From NCBI GenBank assembly GCA_015657395.1, contig JADLKI010000002.1, positions 80,978 through 93,824 on the forward strand: DNA of 12,847 nt, in the 5' to 3' direction. Both the position numbers and the translations under genes were made by a program. Shown one piece after another: positions 2,423 to 9,081 of the stretch. The stretch's first letter is position 1. Each line of letters starts with the position of its first letter. The notes beneath the pieces were generated by a model. It saw only the letters and a program-made list of their open reading frames with translations. It was not told where the DNA came from and made no database searches. This stretch comes from Spirochaetales bacterium (GTDB lineage: Bacteria; Spirochaetota; Spirochaetia; Treponematales; Rectinemataceae).

Positions 2423-4084
2423 TTATTCGAGCACTGCGCCACTCATGCCCGACGTGACGACTCTCCGGTACCGGCTGAGGAAAGGGCTGTCGACAGCCTG
2501 CACATATGGTTTCCACGCGGCGCGGCGGCGGGCGAGTTCGGCTTCATCCACCAGGAGATCGATTTTTTTGCCGGGGATATCGATGTGGATCGGGTCGCCT
2601 TCCCGCACGAGGGCGATGGGCCCGCCCGCCGCCGCTTCGGGCGAGATGTGGCCGATCGACGCGCCGCGCGATGCGCCGGAGAATCTGCCGTCGGTGATGA
2701 GCGCGACGGTCTTGTCCATGCCCATGCCGGCCAGCGCCGACGTCGGGCTGAGCATCTCGCGCATGCCCGGGCCGCCCTTGGGGCCTTCGTAGCGGATCAC
2801 AAGGACGTCGCCCTCGACGATCTTCCGCGCCTGGATGGCCGCGAAGGCCTCTTCTTCGCTGTCGAAGACTCTTGCAGGGCCCGTGTGCACGAGCATCTCG
2901 GGCGCCACGGCCGACTGCTTCACGACTGCGCCGTCGGGGGCGAGGGAGCCGCGGAGAACCGCGAGTCCGCCCGTCGCGTGATAGGGCCTGTCCAGCGGCC
3001 TGATGACCTCGTCGTCCACGACGCGCGCGCCTGCGATGTTCTCCCCCTGTGTCGCGCCGGTGACCGTGAGGCAGTTTTCGTGGAGCAGGCCTCCGCGCGC
3101 GAGGCGGGCCATCACGGCCTGCACGCCGCCCGCCCGGTACAGGTCCTGGATATGGTAGGAGCCTCCCGGCGACATGCTGCAGATGTGCGGCACCTTTCCG
3201 CCCAGTTCGTTGAAGAGCTCGAGGTCGAGGCTCAGACCCGCGGCCCAGGCGATGGCGGGGAGGTGGAGGGCGGTGTTCGTGGACCCTCCCAGGGCGAGGT
3301 CGACGGCCACGGCGTTCTCGAAGGCCTCGCGGGTGAGGATGTCGCGCGGCTTTATGTCCTTCTCGATGAGGGCCATCACCGCCCTTCCCGCGTCCTTCGC
3401 GAGCCTCTCCCGCTCGGCGTGCACGGCCGGAATGCTCCCGTTGCCGGGCAGGCCCAGTCCGAGCGCTTCCATCATGCAGTTCATCGTGTTGGCGGTGAAC
3501 ATGCCCGCGCATGAGCCGCAGCCGGGGCATGCCGCATTCTCGACTTCCAGGAGGTCGGCGTCGCTCGCCTTCCCCGCGATGTGCTTGCCCACGGTCTCAA
3601 AGACGGTGTTGAGGTCGATTTCTCTTCCATGCAGCGTTCCCGTGAGCATCGGCCCACCCGATATGACGATGGAGGGGATGTTCAGCCTGGCCGCGGCCAT
3701 CGCCATGCCGGGGATGATCTTGTCGCAGTTCGTCACGAGCACGAGGGCATCGAAGGCATGTGCCTGCGCCATCACTTCGATCGAGTCCATGATGAGCTCG
3801 CGCGACGGCAGGGAGAATTTCATGCCGAGGTGGTTCATTGCGATGCCGTCGCATACGCCGATGGTCGGGAACTCGATGGGCAACCCTCCTGCGGCGTAGA
3901 TGCCGGCCTTCACCGCTTCGGTGATCCGCCTGAGGTGGACGTGGCCCGGAATGATCTGGTTGTACGCGTTGGCGACGCCGACCCATGGCCGCTCGATTTC
4001 CCAGTCGCAGTATCCGGCGGCCTTGAGCAGTGACCTGTGCGGCGCCCTCTCGGGTCCCGTTTTTGCTCTATCGCTTCTCATCAT
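2423..4084 (-). CDS. ilvD: Dihydroxy-acid dehydratase (553 aa)
   Basis: Iron-sulfur dehydratase converting 2,3-dihydroxy-isovalerate and 2,3-dihydroxy-3-methylvalerate to the 2-keto acids that lead to valine, leucine and isoleucine. Seen: ERAPHRSLL near the N-terminus, [10 protein letters not shown] at 42-51, [10 protein letters not shown] at 76-85, TNCDK with Cys120, CPGCGSC with Cys192, [15 protein letters not shown] at about 265-279, and GRFSGASRG near the C-terminus. The length fits the compact bacterial/archaeal form; E. coli IlvD is about 616 residues. The start at 4084 lies 3 nt after the leuB stop and its ribosome binding site, GAGAGGTG, is inside the end of leuB, so the two are coupled. 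A second in-frame ATG at 4081 is also possible. The PGH at the first cluster-ligand position resembles E. coli IlvD rather than the PCN of plant and mycobacterial 2Fe-2S enzymes; this comparison is from memory. Confidence 0.97.
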
Positions 4085-4087
4085 AGT

Positions 4088-5164
4088 TCACCTCTCGATG
4101 GCCCGGACCACGGCTTCGCCCATGGCGCGCGTACCGAGCACGATCTCTCCGGCCGCTCCCGTGGCGATATCGGCGCAGCGGCGGCCGGCCGCCAGGACCG
4201 AAGAGACCGCCCGCTCGATCAGCGCCGCCTCGGCGCCGCGCCCCAGGCCGTAGGATAAGAGCATTGCAGCCGAAAGGATGGTGGCGAGAGGATTGGCCTG
4301 GTCTTTGCCCGCAAGATCGGGGGCCGAACCGTGGATCGGCTCGAAGATGCCGGGGCCGGCGTCGCCGATGCTTGCGCTCGGCAGCATCCCGATGGAACCC
4401 GTGATCATACTGGCCTCGTCGGACAGAATGTCGCCGAACATGTTGCTCGTCGCGATGACGTCGAACTGACCGGGATTGCGGACAAGCTGCATGGCGCAGT
4501 TGTCGACATACATGAAGCTCGTCTCGACGTCGGGGTAGCGGGCGGCGACATCCCGGGCTCTCTGACGCCAGAGCCGGCTCGACTCGAGCACATTCGCCTT
4601 GTCGACGACGCACAGTTTTCTTTTTCTCGATCTGGCCGCGCGGTAGGCGATGTCGAGCAGTCGCTCGATTTCAGCCTTGGTATAGCGCTCGGTGTCCCAT
4701 GCGGCTTCGCCGTCGGGGCTTGTGCCGCGCTCGCCGAAGTAAATACCGCCCGTGAGTTCCCTCACGATGAGCAGGTCCAGCCCTCCGGCTATGATTTCGG
4801 GCTTCAGGGGGCAGGCCGCCGCAAGCTCGGTGAATATCCTGGCGGGCCTCAGATTGGCATAGACGCCCATGGCGGCGCGAAGGCCGAGGAGGCCCGCTTC
4901 CGGGCGCAGATTGCCGGGAAGGCTGTCCCAGCGCGGGCCGCCGACCGCGCCCAGAAGGACCGCATCGGCAGAGCGGCAGGCCTCCAGGGTCGACTCCGGC
5001 AGCGGGGAGCCCGTAGCGTCGATGGCCGCGCCGCCCATAGGCGACGCTACAAACTCGACGGTGAAGCCCGAGACCCTCGCGACGGTCCGGAGCACTTTTA
5101 CCGCTTCGGCGACGACGTCCGGGCCTATGCCGTCCCCGGAAATGGTTGCGATTGTACACTTCAT
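4088..5164 (-). CDS. leuB: 3-isopropylmalate dehydrogenase (358 aa)
   Basis: NAD-dependent oxidative decarboxylation of 3-isopropylmalate to 2-ketoisocaproate, the third step of leucine synthesis. Seen: ISGDGIGPDVV at 8-18, substrate-binding arginines in GLRAAMGVYANLRPAR (Arg96, Arg106) and RELTGG (Arg135), Tyr142, Lys189 in VVDKANVLESSRLW, metal-binding Asp221 (YVDNCAMQL) and Asp245/Asp249 (NMFGDILSDEASM), and the NAD-site motif GSAPDLAGKDQANPLA. I chose the ATG at 5164 over the upstream ATG at 5188. It gives a family-standard N-terminus (MKCTIATISGDGIGP), and AAGGAG lies 6 nt before it, inside the last codons of leuD, whose stop ends one base away. The longer form would overlap leuD by 23 nt and add eight unconserved residues. 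Confidence 0.97.
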   Translation of the reverse strand: MKCTIATISGDGIGPDVVAEAVKVLRTVARVSGFTVEFVASPMGGAAIDATGSPLPESTLEACRSADAVLLGAVGGPRWDSLPGNLRPEAGLLGLRAAMGVYANLRPARIFTELAAACPLKPEIIAGGLDLLIVRELTGGIYFGERGTSPDGEAAWDTERYTKAEIERLLDIAYRAARSRKRKLCVVDKANVLESSRLWRQRARDVAARYPDVETSFMYVDNCAMQLVRNPGQFDVIATSNMFGDILSDEASMITGSIGMLPSASIGDAGPGIFEPIHGSAPDLAGKDQANPLATILSAAMLLSYGLGRGAEAALIERAVSSVLAAGRRCADIATGAAGEIVLGTRAMGEAVVRAIER

Positions 5165-5165
5165 C

Positions 5166-5696
5166 TCAGTCTCCTTCCTGTCTGACACCGGTACGGGCGC
5201 CGGAGTTCAGCAGTTTTTTCCTGGTGTAGGGTATGAGGCCCCCCGTGGCCATGATATCCCGCACGAATGGAGGGAAGAGCGCTGCCCGATACTGCCTGTC
5301 CCGGGTCAGGTTGTGAATTTCACCCGACTCGAAGTCCACGCTGAGCATGTCGCCGCTCTGGATCTCCGCAGCGGCCTGCGGACATTCGAGTATCGCGAGG
5401 CCGATGTTGATGGCGTTGCGGTAGAAGATGCGCGCAAAGCTGCCTGCGATGACGCATGCGACACCCGAGGCCTTTATCGCGATGGGGGCGTGCTCCCGCG
5501 ACGAGCCGCAGCCGAAATTCTCGCCGGCGACGATGATGTCGCCCTGTAAAACTCCCGCAGCAAAGCCGGGGTCGATATCTTCCATGCAGTGTGCGGCGAG
5601 CTCCGCCGGATCGCTTGTCGTCAGGTACCTTGCGGGCACGATGACGTCGGTGTCCACGTTATCCCCGTATTTCCAGACTCTACATCCTTGTTTCAT
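5166..5696 (-). CDS. leuD: 3-isopropylmalate dehydratase small subunit (176 aa)
   Basis: Small (swivelling) subunit of isopropylmalate isomerase, which pairs with LeuC to interconvert 2- and 3-isopropylmalate. Seen: [15 protein letters not shown] at 11-25, [10 protein letters not shown] at 36-45, [21 protein letters not shown] at 58-78 and [14 protein letters not shown] at 87-100. Length is typical of the short LeuD class. The frame is open 33 codons further upstream to 5795, but that part is arginine-rich, overlaps leuC and is unconserved. The ATG at 5696 follows AAAGGAAGG, which itself overlaps the leuC stop, so the start is well supported. The YLTTSDP loop matches the usual bacterial leucine-pathway form (YLNTSDP) as I remember it, rather than the YLRT of methanogen homoaconitases. 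Confidence 0.97.
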
Positions 5697-5707
5697 GGTC
5701 CCTTCCT

Positions 5708-7012
5708 TTACGCTTTCGCAGTCGTTTCGAAGTAGCCGCGCGGGGGAGCTGGGGCGATCTCGCCGGGATCGACGATGCAGCCCGCGAGGGCGCACGCGGC
5801 GGCGGTCGCCGGGCTGGCCAGATACACCTCGGAGCCGGGGTGGCCCATGCGGCCCACGAAGTTCCTGTTGGTCGTGGCCACCGCGCGCTCGCCGTCGGCG
5901 AGTATGCCCATGTGACCGCCGAGACAGGGCCCGCAGGTCGGCGTCGACACCACGGCGCCGGCCTCTATGAAGGCATCGACGAGGCCCTCGCGGACAGCCT
6001 GCCTGTAGATCTGCTGGGTGGCGGGGATGACGATGCAGCGGATACCGGGAGCGACCGACCGGCCCTTCAGGAGAAAGGCAGCCGCGCGAAGGTCTTCGAT
6101 GCGTCCGTTGGTGCAGGAACCGATGACGACTTGGTCGATCGGCGTTCTCTCCGCGCCGGCCGCCGGCCGCGCATTGGAGGGCAGATGGGGAAAGGCGATC
6201 TGCGGTCTGATCGAAGTCAGGTCGATGGCGATCGTCCGTTCGTATTCGGCGTCGGAGTCGGCCGCATATTCCCTGTAGCTCCGGGCAGAGACCGATGCGG
6301 CCCAGGCGCGCGTCCTCGCGTCGACCGCGAAAATTCCATTCTTTGCGCCGGCCTCTATGGCCATATTGGCGATCGTGAAGCGTTCATCCATCGAGAGCGT
6401 CGCGACGCCCGGCCCGTCGAATTCCATGGACCGGTACAGGGCACCGTCGACTCCGATCGCGCCGATGACGGACAGGATCAGGTCCTTGCCGCAGGCCCAT
6501 CCACCCAGCGCTCCGTTCAGGACGAAGCGTATGGCCCCGGGCACCTTGAACCACGCGGTTCCCGCAGCCATGGCGGCCGCCATATCGGTGGAGCCGATGC
6601 CGGTGGAAAAGGCGCCGACAGCCCCGTAGGTGCAGGTGTGCGAATCGGCTCCTATGACGAGCTCCCCGGGCAGCACGAGTCCCTGCTCGGGGAGGAGAGC
6701 GTGCTCGATGCCCATGCGGCCGATCTCGAAATAGTGCTCGATCTCGCGGTTTCTGGCGAAGTCGCGCATAATCTTGCACTGCTCGGCCGATTTGATGTCT
6801 TTGTTTGGCGCGAAGTGGTCCGGCACGAGGGCGATCCGCCGCTGGTCGAAGACCTCCGCGACACCGATCTTCTCGAATTCTCTGATCGCGACGGGGGCCG
6901 TCACATCGTTGCCCAGAACGAGGTCCACCTGCGCCTCGATGAGCTGGCCCGCTTCCACGGAGGCCAGGCTGGCGTGGTCCGCAAGGATCTTCTGAGTCAT
7001 CGTCATTGGCAT
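5708..7012 (-). CDS. leuC: 3-isopropylmalate dehydratase large subunit, short (LeuC2/HacA-like) class (434 aa)
   Basis: Catalytic aconitase-fold subunit with a 4Fe-4S cluster; works with LeuD in the second step of leucine synthesis. Seen: [12 protein letters not shown] at 29-40, [16 protein letters not shown] at 63-78, [24 protein letters not shown] at 120-143, and the three cluster cysteines Cys300 (GSCTNGR), Cys360 and Cys363 ([11 protein letters not shown]). At about 430 residues it belongs to the short class, not the roughly 465-residue E. coli class. An upstream in-frame extension to 7483 is a read-through of leuA in another frame and is not real. The ATG at 7012 overlaps the leuA end by 10 nt and has AAAGGAG 6 nt upstream. 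ATGs at 7006 and 7000 are alternatives with poorer spacing. Confidence 0.96.
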
Positions 7013-8673
7013 TGGGCGCTCCTTTCTGTTTCGGCAAGGGCGCGAGAGGTGCCCCGCCCGTTCGCCGTGTCTTCCGGCGGCCTTGTTTCGGCGGCCGCTG
7101 CTCCGACCGCCGGCCCGCGGTCGGCCACGCCGGCACGCGCACCGTCGCCGATTACGGCGTTGATCGCGTCGAGGTAGGCCCGGACGCTTGCCTCGACGAT
7201 GTCGGTGGAGACTCCACGGCCGTTGTACATTCGATCGGCCAGCCGTATCCTGACCCGGGCCTCGCCCTGGGCATCCTTGCCGCCCGTCACGGAATCGAGA
7301 GAGAAATCTTCGAGGACCGGTTTCACGTCGACAATCTTGTCGATGGCATTGAAGGACGCATCGATGGGACCGTCGCCGATCGCCACCTGCTCGCATGTCT
7401 GCCCAGCGGCGGACACGAGACATACCGCGCTCGTCGACGCAATCGTGCTGCCCGAGTTGATGATGAAGCGCTCCATCCGCCACGCGGCCGGCCGCTCAGG
7501 GGCCGCACCCCGTGCCAGGGCCTCGAGATCGCGGTCGGTCACCACTTTCTTCTTGTCGGCCAAGGCCTTGAAAGCCTCGAAGAGGCGCGCTTCACGATCC
7601 GCGTCCAGATGGAAGCCGAGCTCTTTCAGGCGCTCGTCGAAGGCGTGTCGGCCCGAATGTTTGCCGAGCACTATCTTGTTTCGGGGCAGCCCGATCGACT
7701 CGGGCGTCATGATCTCGTAGGTCTCGCGGTTCGCGAGGACGCCGTGCTGGTGGATGCCGGACTCATGGGCGAAGGCGTTCTCGCCGACGATGGCCTTGTT
7801 GGCCTGAACGCGGGAGCCGGTGACCGTCGAGACGAGGCGCGAGGCTGCGTAGATCCTGGTGGTATCGACGTTGCAGCGCAGGTCCGTGCCGCAGACGGAG
7901 CGAAAGTAGTCTGCCCGCGTGCGCATGGCCATCACTATCTCTTCGAGGGCCGCGTTGCCGGCGCGTTCGCCGATGCCGTTTATTGTACACTCCACCTGGT
8001 CCGCGCCGGCCTCGATGGCCGCCAGGCTGTTGGCGACGGCAAACCCGAGGTCGTCATGGCAATGCACCGACAGAACGGCTCCATCGATGTTGGGCGTGCC
8101 TGCGCGGATGGAGCGGATCAGCGAACCGAACTCGCCGGGCATGGCATACCCGACGGTATCCGGCACATTCACCGTCGACGCGCCCGCCTCGATGACGGCG
8201 CTGAGAATTCTGCAGAGGAACGCAGGGTCGGAGCGCGACGCGTCTTCCGCCGAGAATTCGACATCGGGACAGCGTTTTTTCGCGTACCTGACCATGGCGG
8301 CGGCCTTTGCGATGACCTCGTCCGGTTTCATGCGCAGTTTGTATTTCATATGGATGGGGGACGTGGCGATGAAGACATGGATGCGCGGCCTTTCCGCGCC
8401 GCGCAGGGCATCCCACGAAGCGTCGATGTCGAGTTCGACCGCACGCGACAGGCTTGCGATAATCGGCCCGCGCACGGTGCGCGCGATCTCATGTACCGAA
8501 GCGAAATCTCCGGGACTGGCGATCGCGAAACCAGCCTCGATGACATCCACACCGAGCGATTCGAGAACCCTGGCGACCTCGAGCTTTTCCGCCTGGTTCA
8601 TGCTGCAGCCCGGTGCCTGTTCTCCATCGCGGAGTGTCGTATCGAAAATGCGGATGATGCGGGGAATATTCAT
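7003..8673 (-). CDS. leuA: 2-isopropylmalate synthase (556 aa)
   Basis: Condenses acetyl-CoA with 2-ketoisovalerate, the committed and normally leucine-inhibited step of leucine synthesis. Seen: [13 protein letters not shown] at 10-22 (catalytic Arg15, metal Asp16), [15 protein letters not shown] at 99-113, the metal-binding [13 protein letters not shown] at 204-216, NGIGERAGN at 232-240, HESGIHQHG at 303-311 and GKHSGRHAF at 338-346. These match LeuA rather than citramalate or homocitrate synthase. Residues about 395-512 form the C-terminal allosteric domain, including [16 protein letters not shown]. The last 44 residues (513-556) are an Ala/Gly/Arg/Glu-rich tail beyond the usual LeuA end. 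The start at 8673 has AAGGAG 8 nt upstream plus an adjoining AAGGAAGG. First gene of the operon, 110 nt after a probable leader peptide. Confidence 0.97.
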
Positions 8674-8782
8674 CCTTCCTTCTCCTTCCTTGTATCGAAT
8701 TTGGTCGTGCGCGGAGGACTTATGCCTGTAAGCGTCGCGACGCGGGGGCGGCCTTTGGATTCAGGCTCTCTCCGCGCGGCCG
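8674..8782 (-). promoter_or_regulatory. Probable attenuator/leader RNA between leader peptide and leuA
   Basis: 109 nt with no gene but several competing pairings on the minus-strand RNA. GCGCGGAG (8777-8770) is perfectly complementary to CTCCGCGC (8716-8709). The AAGGCC segment (8755-8750) can pair with GGCCTT inside the leader frame (8809-8804), and the overlapping GGCCG (8753-8749) with CGGCC just after the leader stop (8782-8778). The first and second pairings would cross, so they probably exclude each other. A 12-bp palindrome lies at 8732-8743. No hairpin is followed by a U-tract, so a classical rho-independent attenuator is not demonstrated; control could act on rho-dependent termination or on leuA translation. 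Confidence 0.45.
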
Positions 8783-8899
8783 TCAGACAACGGAAGAGCC
8801 AGGAAGGCCCAGGGTAAGCAGGAGGATGGAAATGATAATGACGATGGAAATGGAGACTATACGGGAAGTGGCAGAGGCAGAGACGGCGCGCCGGGCCAT
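8783..8899 (-). CDS. Candidate Ile/Val/Leu-rich leader peptide (38 aa) for the leu-ilv operon
   Basis: Minus-strand frame ending 110 nt before leuA. From the ATG at 8899 it encodes 38 residues, and 16 of the last 25 are Ile (7), Leu (5) or Val (4), including IVIIISILLLTLGL. This resembles the E. coli ilvGMEDA leader in composition. It fits the operon, because IlvD serves Ile, Val and Leu while the Leu genes serve Leu. The frame stays open upstream to ATGs at 8968 and 8983. The predicted promoter starts RNA near 8967, and none of these ATGs has a strong ribosome binding site, which is the main weakness. Alternatives: a small one-helix membrane protein, or the shadow of a Met-rich plus-strand frame (8832-9017) that does have AGGAGG. 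The gene is inferred; the codon run is seen. Confidence 0.5.
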   Translation of the reverse strand: MARRAVSASATSRIVSISIVIIISILLLTLGLPGSSVV

Positions 8900-8973
8900 C
8901 TCGCTGTTCGGACCGATGGGCCGAATGGAGAGGCTTGAATCCCTGACAGGAAGCGCTGCGAACGTCATGGGAG

Positions 8974-9003
8974 TATCTAGCATGCGTCGAATGTCGATGT
9001 CAA
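8974..9003 (-). promoter_or_regulatory. Probable promoter of the leader-leuACDB-ilvD operon
   Basis: On the minus strand a perfect TTGACA -35 (9003-8998) is followed after 18 bp by TAGATA (8979-8974), preceded by TGC as in an extended -10. Predicted transcription start is near 8967, about 294 nt before the leuA start, leaving room for a translated leader and attenuator. The -10 is weak (three of six), so the call rests on the -35, the extended -10 and the position. Confidence 0.5.
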
Positions 9004-9014
9004 GCTGCTATCGG

Positions 9015-9031
9015 TAGAATCATATAAAAAA
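9015..9031 (+). promoter_or_regulatory. AT-rich -10 region for the nucleotidyltransferase gene pair
   Basis: TAGAAT (9015-9020) and TATAAA (9025-9030 region) lie in a short AT-rich island about 50 bp before the 9082 start. No convincing -35 is seen 16-18 bp upstream. It sits back-to-back with the leu promoter, whose -35 is about 12 bp away, so the two promoters would compete for space. Placement is by composition and context only. Confidence 0.3.
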
Positions 9032-9059
9032 TGCGCCGGTCTGCGCTTGACCGACCGGC
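9026..9059 (-). terminator. Intrinsic terminator reading leftward, just upstream of the leu promoter
   Basis: On the minus strand a perfect 7-bp stem (GCCGGTC / GACCGGC) with an 11-nt loop is followed by GCA and six T residues, the classical intrinsic terminator layout. No minus-strand gene ends nearby; the closest upstream one ends at 10787. It may block antisense transcription through the 9082-10721 genes from entering the leu control region. The same dyad would form a 5' leader hairpin in the rightward transcript. Confidence 0.5.
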
Positions 9060-9081
9060 CCTGCGCGAGCATCATGCAAGC

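Follow-up and report, generated by a model that had tools for sequence, protein, structure and literature searches.

Organization of the locus

The window, that is the whole stretch of 12,847 nucleotides analysed here, carries on its minus strand the operon leuA-leuC-leuD-leuB-ilvD, which lies downstream of a short leader reading frame. The five genes were identified with NCBIfam, every one of them over cut-off, and agree with the operon content given in an initial annotation of this DNA. The first gene, leuA (7003..8673), matches NF002086 and TIGR00973 and is followed by leuC (5708..7000; TIGR02083), for which only a predicted start codon is given. For leuD the reading frame as listed covers 5166..5795 and TIGR02084 is matched from residue 39; the true start is probably downstream of the listed one. 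The genes leuB (4088..5188; TIGR00169) and ilvD (2423..4084; TIGR00110) complete the operon.

The leader (8783..8968, minus strand) encodes MTFAALPVRDSSLSIRPIGPNSEMARRAVSASATSRIVSISIVIIISILLLTLGLPGSSVV in 61 codons plus a stop, from the ATG at 8968 to the TGA at 8783..8785. The initial annotation, which placed it at 8783..8899, had the stop end right but not the extent of the frame, and its distance of 110 nt between stop and leuA is borne out by the 109 nt counted to the leuA start at 8673. Ile, Leu and Val account for 16 of the last 25 codons, as had been annotated; this is the highest count in the window, where the next best of the 226 stop-ended frames with 25 codons or more has 12, and single-base shuffling of the stretch did not reach it once in 20,000 trials. 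The regulatory run of Ile, Val and Leu codons (8801..8860, minus strand) ends before the helix P1 described below, is C-rich and G-poor and represents a candidate Rho loading tract.

Upstream of the leader are the -35 box TTGACA (8998..9003, minus strand), noted already in the initial annotation, and, after a spacer of 18 nt, a putative -10 box TAGATA (8974..8979, minus strand) identified by eye; a generic promoter scan of the window did not list this pair. The conserved box ATTCTACCGATAGCAGC (9004..9020, minus strand; consensus TTCTAYnnATAGYARC) is located directly 5' of the -35 box and is possibly an extended promoter element or the operator of a common regulator. The ATG at 8968 follows the first base of TTGACA by 35 nt, which is about where the transcript should begin. 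Between the leader (8783) and leuA (8673) no hairpin with a T-run was found on the minus strand. Rfam 15 delivered no match over the gathering score in the window; for 8600-9060 at E values up to 5 there was only one weak match to a miRNA family (E 0.59, far under cut-off), and over 16 relative loci only rRNA in L125 was matched.

Conservation of the leader frame

Aligning related genomes had been proposed in the initial annotation as a check of the leader. Among ten genomes sampled from the genus, five have a close leuA: the window's own genome and four others, whose leuA is 80-88% identical. Leader frame, codon run and promoter are kept in all five. The leader also precedes leuA in G062, a genome of another family. 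The phase of the frame is preserved through indels of 1, 9 and 10 codons. Almost no amino-acid constraint is seen in the first 34 of the 62 aligned codons (differences by codon position 0.35/0.33/0.44), and the region around the stop codon is the best-conserved part of the leader.

Third positions of the conserved run codons differ at 11.5% (13/113) as compared to 37% in leuA, where only 3 of 464 windows have a third-position difference as low as the codon run. Relative to genes, the run favors CTC/CTT for Leu (odds 2.8) and TCC/TCT for Ser (odds 4.8), as well as TTT (odds 7.7), TAT (4.2) and ATT (3.7); the choice of Val codons is borderline (p 0.056) and Ala codons show no bias. This synonymous choice results in a C-rich, G-poor tract, the C-richness of which follows in part from the amino acids.

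Two further genomes of the genus, G002 and G006, possess a distant leuA (65-68%) preceded by a different, Leu-only leader with another hairpin, and are uncounted here. These leaders (L098, L105) end in SPLLLSLRKGL and a stop, which is located at the strong hairpin GGGTCTTTG...CAAAGACCC (-31.5 and -27.3 kcal/mol) with no evident U-tract, and thus form a second leader type within the genus. No match to leuA was obtained in G004, G007 and G008, of which G004 and G007 are more than 90% complete; leucine synthesis may have been lost in part of the genus.

Copies of the element and their downstream genes

Covariance models and a pattern, followed by inspection, delivered 31 copies of the element in 24 genomes from two spirochaete families, comprising 12 of the 30 genomes searched of the window's own family and 12 of 23 of family f4. 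The first covariance model reached family f4, and two wider models together with the pattern added further copies. Of the 21 sites matched by the pattern in 390 genomes, 17 are elements and four are not; the reversed pattern matched nine times. Outside these two families no copy was confirmed, neither within the order (390 genomes altogether, with weak matches opened or screened in part) nor, past the limits of the order, in two samples of the phylum (392 and 228 genomes, both also with members of the order).

Weak matches that turned out to have no leader on opening are G026:C360, G026:C217, G083:C4, G010:C90, G037:C2, G126, G311, G071:C134, G071:C88 and G013:C81, and L142 sits in ordinary frames. 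G013:C122 and, in other genomes, 17 weak matches of the first model (L141, L143-L146, L148-L155 and L157-L160) were discarded by a script screen, with no promoter box or codon run, L146 having one marginal FY count of 5.

The leaders of the copies fall into three classes. Ile/Leu/Val leaders, 13 in number, stand before leuA, ilvN or ilvE. Phe/Tyr leaders, such as MATEQQVPTTLPGGDTSAPSSFYFYFYYKL, occur 16 times; aro genes are found downstream in nine and are out of view in seven. Six of the nine are directly before aroF (G077, G043, G065, G013, G012 and G026), and three (G040, G048 and G062) precede the same aro operon from behind an aminotransferase gene on the opposite strand. Two poly-Ser leaders, one from G065 (MGRVDVAGITKPSSSSSSSRG...) and one from G043, are located before serS and look like serine-sensing control of seryl-tRNA synthetase, as judged from their sequences. 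The serS of G065 and the aroF of G077 match NCBIfam families over their cut-offs, whereas the family matches of the G077 genes pheA and tyrA and of the G040 aminotransferase stay below cut-off; other gene names in the relatives were assigned by eye from N-termini.

The class of the leader fits the next genes in all 24 copies with genes in view (13 Ile/Leu/Val, 9 Phe/Tyr and 2 Ser). The probability of this match by chance was 2e-8 when 23 copies, before the addition of G026, were shuffled as independent items; since the copies share ancestors, the fair claim is that there are three classes, each matched to its genes, in two families. G026:C441 (L195), a true Phe/Tyr copy directly 5' of aroF, came from a late screen and is counted among the 31. 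The statistics on 29 copies given below leave out G080 and G026, and the alignments leave out G026. In G080 (L209, G080:C312) a palindromic insertion of about 130 bp splits the Phe/Tyr leader, which ends in SFYFYTLYAY and a stop, from P1, and this copy was for that reason kept outside the statistics.

The matched classes also bear on the suggestion, raised in the initial annotation, that the run is part of a membrane helix, so that the frame would encode a small membrane protein. The hydrophobicity of the run is sufficient for a helix, but the first 34 aligned codons are nearly free of constraint and Phe/Tyr or poly-Ser codons replace the hydrophobic run in other copies of this RNA, which makes this reading extremely improbable. 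Multivalent sensing of Ile, Val and Leu, as originally proposed, is favored by the kept frame and run and by the Phe/Tyr and Ser cousins with their matching genes.

The box TTCTAYnnATAGYARC before TTGA is common to 26 of the 31 copies, all with Ile/Leu/Val or Phe/Tyr leaders. Joined to CTTGA, the end of the box has 27 distinct occurrences in the 1.15 Mb of loci examined, a set with overlaps and an excess of these elements; the script marked 23 as promoters of the element, three were assigned by eye and one is a mirror-image site in L208, apart from which the box was seen nowhere else in these loci. Variants of the box are present in G083 and G016; it is absent from the two Ser copies and was not detected by the script in G026. 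As -35 box, relatives with Ile/Leu/Val or Phe/Tyr leaders have TTGAC or TTGAT; both Ser copies have TTGCC.

In L180, L181 and L182 (G040, G048 and G062, respectively) an aminotransferase gene of opposite orientation clearly separates the Phe/Tyr leader from aroF-aroB-aroC-pheA-tyrA. The same layout is probable, by eye, in L183, L205, L208, L209, L213, L192 and L194. With this orientation the leader transcripts would be antisense to the aminotransferase gene, and leader and aro genes possibly form a non-contiguous operon.

Conserved RNA around the stop codon

Four conserved arms surround the leader stop on the minus strand. The 5' arm of helix P1, GGCTCTTCCG (8791..8800), codes for Gly-Ser-Ser-Val here and is non-coding in several relatives; its 3' arm, CGGAGAGAGCC (8764..8774), has one bulged base. 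The leader stop is located inside the P1 loop, as is the 5' arm of helix P2, GACGGCC (8778..8784), and the 3' arm of P2, GGCCGCC (8747..8753), provides five good pairs and weak ends in this genome. The consensus is GGCTCYTCCG with CGGAnAGAGCC for P1 and GACGGCC with GGCCGTC for P2. The arms follow each other in the order 5' P1, 5' P2, 3' P1, 3' P2, and being four separate arms they have the layout of an H-type pseudoknot. The conserved RNA is probably such a pseudoknot: the crossing complementary arms are kept and their co-formation is predicted.

Across 16 sequences, five Phe/Tyr cousins included, 94.4% of cells pair versus at most 47% when slid. Covariation in P1 and P2 is modest. The six closest sequences have no two-sided base change in P1 or P2, and the 11 Ile/Leu/Val sequences have one two-sided pair, no better than shuffles. 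The set of 16 has four two-sided pairs, three of them in P2, a number reached by 1 of 500 shuffles; the overall covariation score was reached by 57 of 500, and according to the tool's own warning such shuffle counts are not probabilities. G026, with CCGGTCC and GGATCGG in P2, adds by eye one more compensated helix. The single-sequence fold of the leader is of ordinary stability, not above shuffles (z 0.40).

RNAalifold, which is unable to draw crossing helices, favors a nested alternative made of P1 and a stem P0 (GGGCCTT with AAGGCC), which shares an arm with P2. P0 was set aside as a conserved stem; its pairing fails in G009 and is preserved poorly across family f4.

The very strong sequence conservation of the arms, and a common promoter box that might bind a regulator, would suit a binding site for a protein or ligand, the leader being a by-product; a protein was also favored for the actinobacterial LEU element by its authors in 2005, according to the available text (PMC1262725). 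However, one and the same RNA carries different leader codons depending on the pathway downstream, and the indels keep the frame. A binding site needs neither, which makes this explanation distinctly improbable.

Probable leaderless start and predicted position of the ribosome

In 27 of the 29 copies measured, 35-40 nt separate the -35 box from the ATG. The exceptions, G010, G023 and, as a 30th copy judged by eye, G026, all belong to the window's family. From this spacing the leader mRNA is probably leaderless, with the ATG at or adjacent to the predicted transcription start. That no good ribosome binding site precedes the leader, correctly observed in the initial annotation, would then probably be due to the position of the ATG at or beside the transcription start.

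Taking the leading edge of the ribosome as 12 nt, which is an assumption, 264 of 282 regulatory codons are located at least 12 nt before P1. The stop codon lies between 8 nt before and 60 nt after the start of P1, and with this leading edge a ribosome terminating there enters or covers the 5' arm of P1 in all 29 copies. The positions of run and stop relative to P1 suggest that starvation lets the knot form and that plenty opens it.

C-rich tract and proposed termination

The 90 nt before P1 stand out in the window, since only one of 5104 windows sampled on both strands, the tract itself or one overlapping it, was as rich in C over G. For the 60 nt before P1 in the 29 copies the median percentile is 0.7%, with 16 of the 29 in the top 1%. 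A weaker excess is found in the two Ser copies (4-6%), which are not G-poor, and in three Phe/Tyr copies (5-9%). As negative control, five ilvB leaders from this genus with Ile/Leu/Val codons and a U-tract terminator are at percentiles of 24-69%. Rho is encoded in 7 of the 10 genomes of the genus, including G000, and in all six of those that are at least 90% complete. Given a bare C-rich run and rho in the genome, loading of Rho would be the most economical OFF step.

The ilvB operon leader of G000, VIIINLLLLGLIIVRVIRHV (L168/L125, G000:C14:20952-22604 plus upstream), has Ile, Leu and Val codons, a Shine-Dalgarno sequence and a U-tract terminator. Such a classical-looking ilvB attenuator is present in five genomes of the genus (also L122, L123, L124 and L126), and no such leader was seen at the ilvB of G002.

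Classical attenuation with an intrinsic terminator in the style of ilvGMEDA, the likeness drawn in the initial annotation, holds for the sensor and not clearly for the switch. These ilvB leaders, with their run, Shine-Dalgarno sequence, GC hairpin and U-tract, have the look of the classical form within the genus, and P0 and P2, sharing an arm, could resemble its alternative hairpins, but the pairs of P0 are broken in some sequences. Leader and leuA have no intrinsic terminator between them on the minus strand, no U-tract terminator was seen by eye after P2 in the relatives, and the best-conserved helices, P1 and P2, cross without a shared arm. This form of control is very improbable here.

Proposed mechanism

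Consistent with the frame, the codon run, the crossing arms, the promoter-to-ATG spacing, the match of codons to pathway and the lack of a U-tract terminator, the element is likely a ribosome-sensing attenuator of leuACDB-ilvD in which the pseudoknot acts as the switch and Rho is the candidate terminator. The firmest part is the sensing core: it is very likely, on sequence grounds, that the leader codons sense the supply of Ile, Val and Leu via the ribosome. The weakest step is the identification of the terminator as Rho, for which we consider the chances to be even.

Transcription would begin at or adjacent to the leader ATG, so that a ribosome loads at the 5' end and trails the RNA polymerase. 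A lack of charged Ile-, Val- or Leu-tRNA would stall the ribosome in the run, mostly at least 12 nt before P1, leaving P1 and P2 free to form the pseudoknot, presumably the ON state, while the pyrimidine-rich run is covered. If all three tRNAs are charged, the ribosome would reach the stop and sit on the 5' arm of P1, blocking the pseudoknot; after its release the bare C-rich run would load Rho, and transcription would end before leuA.

Translational attenuation, partly as considered for the LEU element, would place the switch at the first gene instead: run or fold hides the Shine-Dalgarno sequence of this gene, and a stalled ribosome frees it. Several observations point in this direction. The run of most Ile/Leu/Val copies contains CTCCT, which is complementary to AGGAG, and in the window the single-sequence fold pairs the leader with the Shine-Dalgarno sequence of leuA. 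A base stem of this type is described for the LEU element in the available text of PMC1262725, and mycobacterial leaderless poly-Cys leaders regulate translation according to the part of a review available (PMC9031893).

The pairing was compared with synonymously recoded runs and with the sites of other species; 18 of the 29 copies were submitted and 17 answered, among them G013, which was read in the wrong frame. Only 1 of the 17 loci fell below p 0.05 against recoded runs, and in 15 of the 17 the sites of other species do as well; in the other two, G001 and G062leu, no foreign site pairs with the run as well as the cognate one does. Sequestration by the run thus lacks support as a general rule, with these two loci as exceptions. 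The modelled openness of the first-gene start in the stalled state rises by 0 to 0.17 and never falls in 14 loci, but the changes are too small for the main case, and in 2 of the 14 the larger opening comes from a ribosome at the stop. Moreover, in the three Phe/Tyr copies behind the opposite-strand gene the first gene on the same strand is more than 1.2 kb away. Translational control is rather unlikely, and termination governed by the leader ribosome is preferred.

More generally, the copies may represent a spirochaete platform consisting of promoter box, leaderless leader, a run serving both as sensor and as Rho loading site, and a ribosome-controlled pseudoknot, which a swap of the codon run re-targets to branched-chain, aromatic or serine genes; the LEU element may use the same trick, independently or by distant relationship. 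We regard this extension as tentative, somewhat more doubtful than not. Leader codons that track the pathway on one and the same RNA amount to a natural swap, which is evidence that specificity lies in the translation of the leader and not in a protein or ligand. The leaderless start would gain a function, as ribosome and polymerase start together.

Comparison with known systems

The enteric ilv, leu and trp attenuators sense charged tRNA by leader codons and work with alternative hairpins and an intrinsic terminator. Codon sensing is alike in the element described here, whereas their intrinsic terminator was not found. The E. coli tna operon is Rho-dependent and is induced by free tryptophan by way of an arrest peptide. 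There, as proposed here, a ribosome on or off the Rho loading site decides on termination, but here the ribosome would stall on hungry codons. The ilvB attenuator of the same genus likewise has an Ile/Leu/Val leader before a branched-chain operon, and differs by its Shine-Dalgarno sequence, its U-tract terminator and the absence of a C-rich run. Attenuation across bacteria was reportedly treated by Lopatovskaya in 2010.

Searches of the open PMC literature delivered no report of this element. For Spirochaetales a statistical excess of short leader genes is described in the available text of PMC4833913. Spirochaete precedent for candidate branched-chain leaders, compared by description, is given by the Leptospira ilvB motif, with seven representatives, whose candidate upstream reading frames are rich in branched-chain codons and are described as threonine-rich as well (PMC10272879, in the part available). 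The ilvB-OMG motif likewise has candidate upstream reading frames rich in branched-chain codons before ilvB (PMC8632094, in the part available). Both motifs concern ilvB only and one amino-acid class, and the available descriptions mention no pseudoknot. With aromatic and serine genes and a switch lacking a terminator hairpin, the copies described here would widen the codon sensing so far proposed for spirochaetes from the candidate Leptospira ilvB leaders.

Precedents for a start at or next to the leader ATG come from C. glutamicum and mycobacteria. The ilvBNC attenuator of C. glutamicum starts one nucleotide from the leader ATG and, unlike the element here, works with alternative hairpins and an intrinsic terminator, according to the text available (PMC11857589). 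The mycobacterial poly-Cys attenuators (Canestrari 2020, as cited in PMC9031893 and PMC13236596) are also leaderless short reading frames, in which the sensed codon is repeated ahead of an operon; as far as the available parts of these texts describe them, they sense Cys only and regulate translation, and a pseudoknot is not mentioned.

By described layout, the nearest published relative is the LEU element found before leuA in Actinobacteria, with a Leu leader, a pseudoknot and a base stem (Seliverstov et al. 2005, PMC1262725, in the part available). Shared features are the leader reading frame with a run of codons of the product, the position before leuA and, in the available description, no terminator; the predicted pseudoknot here would correspond to the conserved one there. 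The LEU element has a Leu run and a base stem that joins this run to the Shine-Dalgarno sequence; the element described here, compared by description, occurs in another phylum, has an Ile/Val/Leu run, three classes matched to their genes and leaderless spacing, and a base stem is unsupported. The mechanism of the LEU element was left open by its authors, who favored a protein because codon mutations in S. coelicolor did not fit attenuation, and who also named the tna operon (PMC1262725, available text). The three gene-matched classes argue for codon sensing, and the element is filed as a form of ribosome-mediated attenuation and not as a LEU element. The mechanism proposed here gives a hypothesis, accessible to experiment, for how the LEU element of 2005 with its pseudoknot may work, and the platform reading, if true, would account for its unsolved mechanism.
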